Shown here: in pieces, positions 48,755 to 50,350 of the stretch | Position numbering within the stretch: position 1 is the stretch's first letter | Layout of the letters: each line of letters opens with the position of its first letter | Made by a program: the position numbers and the translations under genes | The notes under the pieces: model-generated | Database searches by the model: none | What the model saw: only the letters and a program-made list of their open reading frames with translations | What the model was told of the DNA's origin: nothing | NCBI RefSeq assembly: GCF_023525255.1 | Contig: NZ_CP073355.1 | Location: forward strand, 1,550,001 to 1,614,000 | Reading direction: 5' to 3' | DNA from: Thermospira aquatica | GTDB lineage: Bacteria > Spirochaetota > Brevinematia > Brevinematales > Thermospiraceae | DNA: 64,000 nt

Positions 48755-48796
48755 TTTCTTTTTTATCGGCATTTTTTTTGTGGTTCTAAAAAAGAA

Positions 48797-48816
48797 AAGG
48801 CGCCTTACGGCGCCTT
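48797..48816 (-). terminator. Terminator of the Hsp20 operon
   Basis: AAGGCGCC / GGCGCCTT stem with a 4-base loop, followed on the minus strand by TTCTTTTTT. Confidence 0.9.
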
Positions 48817-48836
48817 CAAGGATGCGGGTGTTTGTC

Positions 48837-49172
48837 TTAGGCTGTTTTGACTTCGATCTGACGAGGCTTGAAGTCCTCAGCTTTGTTGAGGGTAATGGTG
48901 AGAATACCATCCTGATAGGATGCCTCAATGGTTTCGCGGTTGACTTTTGGTCCAATGCGGAACTCTCGGTGATATTCTCCAAGCTCGAATTCGGTATCAA
49001 TGGGGCGCCATTCTTTGCCGATTTCGACCGTTTTGGCCTCAACAATCAATCTCTCCTCATCGACCTTGACAGAGAGAGTGGATTTGTCTATGCCAGGCAT
49101 CTCCATCAGGATGACATAGGCATTTTCGTTTTCGTAGATATCAGAAGCGGGGATGAGTTTGCGTTTTTCCAT
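48837..49172 (-). CDS. Hsp20/alpha-crystallin small heat-shock protein (third of three)
   Basis: 111 residues. Alpha-crystallin domain from about residue 10: AYVILMEMPGIDKSTLSVKV and YHREFRIGPKVNRETIEASYQDGILTITL. Very short N-terminal arm and no C-terminal IxI. It holds unfolding proteins. Strong AAGGAGG; 10 bases after the second Hsp20 gene. Confidence 0.95.
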   Translation of the reverse strand: MEKRKLIPASDIYENENAYVILMEMPGIDKSTLSVKVDEERLIVEAKTVEIGKEWRPIDTEFELGEYHREFRIGPKVNRETIEASYQDGILTITLNKAEDFKPRQIEVKTA

Positions 49173-49182
49173 ACGTACCTCC

Positions 49183-49599
49183 TTACTTTACCTTGACTTC
49201 GATCTTTTTGGGTTCTTTTTTCTCACGTTTTGGTAAAAAGACCAACAGGATCCCATCGATGAGCTTGGCTTCAATCCTGGTTGGATCAACTTCTGCGGAG
49301 AGGCGATAGCTTCGGCTTTCGATGGGTTTGAGACGCTCTCTTCGGATCCATTTAACGTTGTCGTTTTGTTCCTCGCTGGGCTTGAGGGTGATGGTGAGAA
49401 GGTCATTTTCATAATGGACCTCTACACCTTCCTTTTTGATACCAGGAGCCAGCATCTGGATCATGTAGCCACTTTCGTTTTCGTAAATATTGGCGTAGTT
49501 TAAGCGCATCTCTCGCGCTTCTTCCCAGAAGAAGGGAGTGTCAAGCAGACTATTCATGAGATGTTTCATTCTCTCAAGTTCATAAAAGATGTTCGTCAT
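49183..49599 (-). CDS. Hsp20/alpha-crystallin small heat-shock protein (second of three)
   Basis: 138 residues. N-terminal arm to about 35, then the crystallin domain (GYMIQMLAPGIKKEGVEVHY, SYRLSAEVDPTRIEAKLIDGILLVFL), the GILxVxL box, and a basic tail KKEPKKIEVKVK. The tail IEVKV may serve as the oligomerisation motif. AAGGAGG before the start; 10 bases after the first gene. Confidence 0.95.
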   Translation of the reverse strand: MTNIFYELERMKHLMNSLLDTPFFWEEAREMRLNYANIYENESGYMIQMLAPGIKKEGVEVHYENDLLTITLKPSEEQNDNVKWIRRERLKPIESRSYRLSAEVDPTRIEAKLIDGILLVFLPKREKKEPKKIEVKVK

Positions 49600-49609
49600 A
49601 AAAACCTCC

Positions 49610-50026
49610 TTACGAAATCTTTACATCAATTTTTTTGGTTTTGGACTCACCGACTTTGGGGAGTTCAATGGTGAGCACTCCTTTCTTGTACTCAGCTTTC
49701 GCTTTGTTTGCATCTACCTCTCGAGGGAGTTCAATACTTCGACAGAAACTCCCCTCAAATCGCTCAATGCGATGATAGTTCTTGTTCTTTTCTTCTCGCT
49801 TCTCTGAGCGGCTTCCACTGATGGTGAGGATGTTGTTAGAAAGCTCAACTTTAATGTCTTTTTCATCCATGCCGGGGAGATCTGCCTTGACCACGATGGC
49901 TTTGTCAGTCTCCTCGAGATCCACGTTAAAGGACCATGGGGTCCCATCAAAGGTCGTTACCCAGTCTGTTCGGAAAAAATCATCCAACCAGCTTATAGGG
50001 TTTGTGTTTCTCCGAATCAGTTTCAT
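49610..50026 (-). CDS. Hsp20/alpha-crystallin small heat-shock protein (first of three)
   Basis: 138 residues, the most canonical of the three: VVKADLPGMDEKDIKVELSN, FCRSIELPREVDANKAKAEYK and GVLTIELPKV, with C-terminal KKIDVKIS. AAAGGAGG precedes the start. First gene of the operon, with a sigma54 promoter about 40 bases upstream. Confidence 0.96.
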   Translation of the reverse strand: MKLIRRNTNPISWLDDFFRTDWVTTFDGTPWSFNVDLEETDKAIVVKADLPGMDEKDIKVELSNNILTISGSRSEKREEKNKNYHRIERFEGSFCRSIELPREVDANKAKAEYKKGVLTIELPKVGESKTKKIDVKIS

Positions 50027-50067
50027 AGGCTACCTCCTTTTTTTGTTTTTTTCTTCGTAAAAGATTT

Positions 50068-50083
50068 AGCAAAAAGCGTGCCA
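50068..50083 (-). promoter_or_regulatory. Sigma54 (RpoN) promoter of the Hsp20 operon
   Basis: Minus-strand TGGCACGCTTTTTGCT (50083 to 50068) is an exact match to the -24/-12 consensus TGGCACG-N4-TTGCW. Transcription would begin near 50057, about 31 bases before the first ATG. No good sigma70 or CIRCE-type element was noticed. Confidence 0.85.
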
Positions 50084-50159
50084 AAAAAATTATGAAAAAG
50101 GGATAAAAATGTCGGAAAAAAATGAGCAGAATGAGTTTTTTTGAGCTCTTTTTTTATAA

Positions 50160-50212
50160 ATGTTTCTTTTTGACTCATTTTTAGAATTGTGATTTTGTTT
50201 CTTTTTGAAACA
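50160..50212 (-). promoter_or_regulatory. Candidate enhancer sites for a sigma54 activator
   Basis: Perfect dyad TGTTTC-N5-GAAACA at 50196-50212 and a near copy TGTTTC-N5-GACTCA at 50161-50177. Their centres are 35 bp apart, about 110 and 145 bp upstream of the predicted start, the usual place for activator-binding sites. Rest of 50027-50350 holds only A/T-rich sequence and the PEBP promoter. Confidence 0.6.
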
Positions 50213-50292: not shown

Positions 50293-50350
50293 AAACTCAG
50301 GAAAAAAGTTTTAAATATGCCCAGGCAAAGGGTAAAGAAAGAGGTAGGGT

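Follow-up and report, generated by a model that had tools for sequence, protein, structure and literature searches.

The hsp20 operon and its predicted sigma54 promoter

Within the window, i.e., the whole analyzed stretch of 64,000 nucleotides of the Thermospira aquatica genome, three genes encoding small heat-shock proteins are located next to each other on the minus strand. The genes, the elements predicted to control them and the terminator are listed below, with the upstream sites numbered relative to a transcription start predicted near 50057.

48796–48817, minus strand: intrinsic terminator after gene C, a 9-pair hairpin (GAAGGCGCC GTAA GGCGCCTTT) followed by a T-run
48837–49172, minus strand: Hsp20 gene C, 111 aa (PF00011, 6.4e-18), 10-bp gap to gene B
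49183–49599, minus strand: Hsp20 gene B, 138 aa (PF00011, 2e-16), 10-bp gap to gene A
49610–50026, minus strand: Hsp20 gene A, first gene of the operon, 138 aa (PF00011, 5.4e-24)
50068–50083, minus strand: sigma54 -24/-12 element TGGCACGCTTTTTGCT, exact consensus
50161–50177, no strand assigned: putative proximal activator site TGTTTCTTTTTGACTCA (minus strand TGAGTCAAAAAGAAACA), imperfect dyad centred near -112
50196–50212, no strand assigned: putative distal activator site TGTTTC-N5-GAAACA, perfect dyad centred near -147 and a member of the conserved motif

All three genes scored above the cut-off of PF00011 (Hsp20 / alpha-crystallin family), and a search of the 2.5-Mb single-contig genome identified them as its only Hsp20 genes. 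The closest solved chains of gene A are class I plant small heat-shock proteins and HSP16.9, and its nearest named relatives originate from two Brevinematales MAGs showing 87–88% identity. Genes A to C are predicted to form one transcription unit extending from the sigma54 promoter to the terminator at 48796–48817. An earlier note on this DNA was right for the most part in what it observed: three Hsp20 genes are indeed encoded in tandem, but the interval to which it had assigned them (49183–50212) does not include gene C.

The same note had described an exact sigma54 consensus upstream of the first gene, and TGGCACGCTTTTTGCT is indeed present at 50083–50068 of the minus strand, its first base being located 57 bp ahead of the ATG of gene A. 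None of 1000 dinucleotide shuffles of 150 bp reached the score of this element, which matches the -24/-12 pattern TGGCACG-N4-TTGCW exactly. Genome-wide, 18 sigma54 sites with at most one mismatch were counted vs. 4 for a reversed control pattern.

Conservation of the promoter was analyzed in 13 Brevinematales genomes representing four families, f1 (the family of T. aquatica) to f4; Hsp20 genes are present in nine of them. The relatives included several MAGs that are incomplete. In all nine, a -24/-12-like element precedes the first Hsp20 gene by approximately 47–57 bp, and these orthologous promoters all share TGGCAC and the TG of the -12 box. Shuffled sequences reached the score of the element in 0 to 16 of 1000 cases per genome (eight genomes tested). 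In G005 (L233, G005:C130), the locus lacks gene A, and the sigma54 promoter is kept directly ahead of gene B. Furthermore, an alignment within the own genus showed that the hsp20 intergenic DNA has largely diverged while the promoter was retained, and order-wide, conservation extends to the -24/-12 element and the dyads upstream of it but not to neighbouring intergenic DNA. Outside the order, no such arrangement was detected, since none of 23 loci encoding Hsp20 relatives, a small and query-biased set, featured a convincing sigma54 element.

If the -24/-12 element were fortuitous, the operon would mainly be transcribed from a sigma70 promoter, and a sigma70-like match is indeed located at 50314–50285 of the minus strand. 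It agrees at 9 of 12 positions, however, is separated from the gene by over 250 bp and coincides in part with the promoter region of the divergent gene; moreover, the number of sigma70-like matches is within the shuffle range (4 found vs. 2.2 expected). In view of these properties and of the invariant -24/-12 core in nine orthologous promoters, transcription mainly by sigma70 is regarded as highly improbable. Within the promoter itself, the replacement of the -12 GC by GA in the hsp20 promoters of f3 counts against control by sigma54 and an enhancer-binding protein (bEBP).

Upstream dyads and the genes sharing them

The earlier note had placed the dyad TGTTTC-N5-GAAACA at two sites upstream of the promoter. 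This is exact for 50196–50212, whereas 50161–50177 deviates from it by two mismatches; the latter site and the distal one are conserved together as a pair. With two mismatches allowed, the window contains 6 copies of the bare dyad vs. 5.1 expected, i.e., no enrichment, and literal searches with one or two mismatches were discarded as uninformative and replaced by the conserved consensus. Comparison of upstream regions across the order yielded the 17-bp dyad TGTRTCAnnnTGAYACA, mostly paired, as a fair consensus, of which the minus-strand copies of the window, TGTTTCAAAAAGAAACA and TGAGTCAAAAAGAAACA, are divergent examples.

The significance assigned to the dyads is based on conservation of the pair upstream of the hsp20 operon in 8/8 order members tested, and not on enrichment of the bare pattern. 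In each of eight genomes, 0 of 400 shuffles reached the top dyad pair, counts that somewhat overstate the significance because the consensus was drawn from the same promoters. The paired dyads are also located at a distance fitting enhancer-type binding (approximately 80–200 bp), and their interpretation as upstream activator sites, as proposed in the earlier note, is supported at the sequence level. The dyads are absent from the sigma54 promoters of amtB and, in most genomes, of a second sigma gene (see below), and hence seem to mark a dedicated regulon. For amtB, sigma54 promoters without dyad were recorded at L024:1516, L160, L183 and L175, pointing to separate nitrogen control through another activator.

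Searching the order with the consensus revealed, in the T. aquatica genome (G000), a zero-mismatch dyad together with the exact sigma54 promoter TGGCACGATTTTTGCA before an RpoS/RpoD-like gene of the sigma70 family, encoding 300 aa and located at 2.39 Mb (2,389,422–2,390,506; L015/L199). Dyad and -24/-12 element also accompany this gene in G011, G010 and f3, with weaker sites in G009. The arrangement is conserved in f1, f3 and f4 except for G012, in which the linked sigma gene was not detected. With regard to NCBIfam equivalogs, the gene is below the cut-offs of both RpoS (TIGR02394, 249.8 vs. 378.7 bits) and RpoH (TIGR02392, 177.1 vs. 323.1 bits).

A second alternative sigma70-family gene of 265 aa, at approximately 990.9 kb of the same genome (L021:1501), was observed to possess a sigma54-like promoter, TGGCATGTTTCTTGCA, and three TGTATACAAA-type repeats upstream. 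Its orthologues in G006, G007, G008, G010, G011 and G012 likewise feature sigma54 elements.

Dyads were furthermore identified before clpB in G000, G011, G012 and G008 (loci L135, L136, L130 and L126), forming pairs approximately 20 bp apart in three of the four loci. At clpB, they adjoin or flank a CTTGACG-type sigma70-like promoter and no -24/-12 element is present, a finding left unaccounted for by a model based on a bEBP alone. The location of dyads directly upstream of such a promoter in all four genomes would agree with binding by a conventional, non-bEBP stress regulator acting at promoters of both the sigma54 and the sigma70 type; a bEBP in solution or at weak sites would then act on the sigma54 element. 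However, NtrC-type bEBPs can bind near sigma70 promoters too, and sites of Fis-type HTH domains typically represent TG...CA dyads of similar length. Moreover, at hsp20 and at the linked sigma gene, the dyads track sigma54 promoters at typical enhancer distance. Recognition of the dyads by a conventional regulator is accordingly rated as improbable.

The groES genes of f1, f3 and f4 are preceded by a CTTGACGAT-N-TATATTTA-like promoter of striking conservation (8/8 loci, L187–L194), which recurs in similar form at clpB (L135) and likewise ahead of a groEL gene in G009. The linked sigma factor was considered as the reader of the CTTGACGAT-N-TATATT promoter at groES and clpB; this assignment was weakened because G012 retains the promoters while lacking a detectable copy of the sigma gene.

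RpoN, enhancer-binding proteins and the candidate activator

The earlier note had regarded a genome devoid of rpoN as incompatible with its proposal. A search of the T. aquatica genome identified one encoded RpoN matching PF04552 (1.9e-57) and exceeding the cut-off of TIGR02395 (370 bits vs. a cut-off of 277). In addition, four enhancer-binding proteins are encoded:

L001: GAF-GAF bEBP, 695 aa
L002, 922.4–925.9 kb of the genome: group (b), NtrC-type orphan response regulator
L003: NtrX-like bEBP
L004: short receiver-less bEBP, 346 aa, near rpoN

L002 comprises a receiver domain (PF00072), a sigma54-interaction AAA+ domain (PF00158) and a Fis-type HTH (PF02954). Members of group (b) were found in every genome of the order except G005, which is 73% complete. 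A histidine kinase beside the group (b) regulator was not evident in the stretches examined from G000 and G002. In the other families, rpoN was not found adjoining the bEBP genes in the stretches examined, and the presence of RpoN there is therefore presumed.

The earlier note had suggested looking for a bEBP gene whose own promoter shares the dyad; such genes exist in two relatives of T. aquatica (G010 and G009), but in one bEBP group only. Among the bEBP groups, such dyads are confined to group (b), with shuffle counts of 0/200 in G010, 1/200 in G009 and weaker values of 4–18/200 in f3. The sequences on which the dyad matrix was trained were picked by eye from hsp20, sigma-gene and clpB promoters; the matrix scores are not independent at these genes and are independent at the bEBP genes. 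No convincing dyad was found near the group (b) gene in f1, including the T. aquatica genome, which counts against activation by this group.

Sigma54 control could also be correct with L001 or L004 as the activator. The groups of both proteins are conserved in f1, f3 and f4, where Hsp20 is present, and absent from f2, a sister family without Hsp20. Moreover, L004 is encoded close to rpoN, and receiver-less bEBPs work in the phage shock response (PspF). However, convincing dyads at the genes of these two groups were not found in any genome (best value 14/200 shuffles), and f2 keeps sigma54 chaperone promoters with the group (b) protein alone. Activation by L001 or L004 is thus considered rather unlikely.

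Family f2 encodes a single bEBP per genome, which was placed in group (b) by the tree. These proteins are devoid of the Fis-type HTH (PF02954 absent in L095, L099 and L102) and stop after the AAA lid. In all four f2 genomes, sigma54 promoters are located 48–67 bp before groES, two of them being exact and two showing one mismatch; further ones were found ahead of groEL (G004) and grpE (G003, G004). The f2 loci concerned are L158, L159, L170, L171, L182, L195 and L197. Dyads of the TGTRTCAnnnTGAYACA type were not found at the f2 chaperone promoters, and the group (b) protein appears to serve them without sites of its own. The loss of both the DNA-binding domain of the activator and its sites is a natural experiment that may show how enhancers can become unnecessary. 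The occurrence of f2 chaperone promoters together with a sole group (b) bEBP, and the restriction of own-start dyads to group (b), favour this group, making L002 the best candidate for the hsp20 activator.

According to the mechanism proposed, sigma54 RNA polymerase would wait as a closed complex at 50083–50068, while an enhancer-binding protein, most likely the orphan regulator L002, would occupy the two dyads approximately 85–120 bp upstream of the -24 element. The dyad-bound activator would then loop to the polymerase and, upon a stress signal such as heat or envelope stress, open the promoter by ATP hydrolysis. The group (b) regulator very likely also activates the sigma54 promoter of the RpoS/RpoD-like sigma gene and probably touches clpB. 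As an outcome, three small chaperones and a second sigma factor would be made in coordination. The result would be a small regulon for proteostasis in an order for which a profile search for HrcA (PF01628), the control of which matched in 7 of 14, gave no match in 13/13 genomes.

Control of the hsp20 operon and the linked sigma gene by sigma54, the dyads and the group (b) activator is considered the likely explanation, and the interpretation of the earlier note, namely sigma54 with a dedicated activator, is supported at the sequence level. A more far-reaching scheme, in which sigma54 and one response-regulator bEBP represent the master heat-shock system of the Brevinematales replacing sigma32 and HrcA, is put forward tentatively and with some doubt. 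It would act directly on hsp20 and the alternative sigma gene in f1, f3 and f4, and on groES, groEL and grpE in f2 through an activator without DNA binding.

Comparison with known sigma54 and heat-shock systems

In most bacteria, nitrogen or motility genes are the ones controlled by sigma54 together with a dedicated activator. Heat-shock control in bacteria is commonly attributed to sigma32, HrcA/CIRCE, CtsR or HspR. In Escherichia coli, sigma54 sites have been associated with ibpB and rpoH, neither of which constitutes the main control. The E. coli case resembles the present one in that a small heat-shock gene and a heat-shock sigma gene were tied to sigma54; the ibpB promoter was unsupported by ChIP, whereas rpoH did have a site (PMC4591121).

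Comparable elements of Chlamydia trachomatis are the tandem sigma66/sigma54 promoter of hrcA-grpE and the protein AtoC (PMC8762339). The likeness lies in a sigma54 promoter on a chaperone operon and in AtoC being a response-regulator bEBP like that of f2 (PMC8762339). Chlamydia retains HrcA/CIRCE, whereas no HrcA was found in the 13 Brevinematales genomes. For Borrelia burgdorferi, the Rrp2-RpoN-RpoS cascade has been described, in which a response-regulator bEBP of a spirochaete and sigma54 likewise transcribe an RpoS-like sigma gene (PMC2940757, PMC11109971). In contrast, the dyad of the Brevinematales is also located before hsp20 and clpB, and their sigma gene is below the RpoS cut-off.

The earlier note had judged RpoN control of small chaperones to be uncommon; it is less unusual than claimed, as it was predicted elsewhere. 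According to a 2025 survey (PMC12316311), the genes of Bacteroidota and Planctomycetota that are enriched downstream of predicted sigma54 promoters include groEL, groES, grpE, dnaK, dnaJ and IbpA-type Hsp20 genes, i.e., the same kind of chaperone genes behind the same kind of predicted promoter. This survey does not mention Brevinematales and, in the relevant passages, names no activator or site, whereas in this order the chaperone promoter is linked to a conserved dyad, to a sigma gene as a further target and to a candidate regulator. Literature linking Brevinematales to sigma54 control of chaperones was not found, the coverage of the literature being limited.

For this little-studied spirochaete order without detectable HrcA, the placement of small chaperones, and in one family of the main chaperonins, behind sigma54 would imply a different wiring of proteostasis. 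Such wiring would keep the chaperones completely silent until a signal-gated ATPase comes into play. Furthermore, the link to a sigma gene suggests that the sigma54-to-sigma cascade of Lyme Borrelia may have a wider spirochaete counterpart tied to protein folding, which is testable in free-living strains. Since reports of sigma54-linked chaperones already exist for Bacteroidota, Planctomycetota and Chlamydia, the Brevinematales do not represent a new category; they combine features of the known sigma54-chaperone systems and add a conserved dedicated site.
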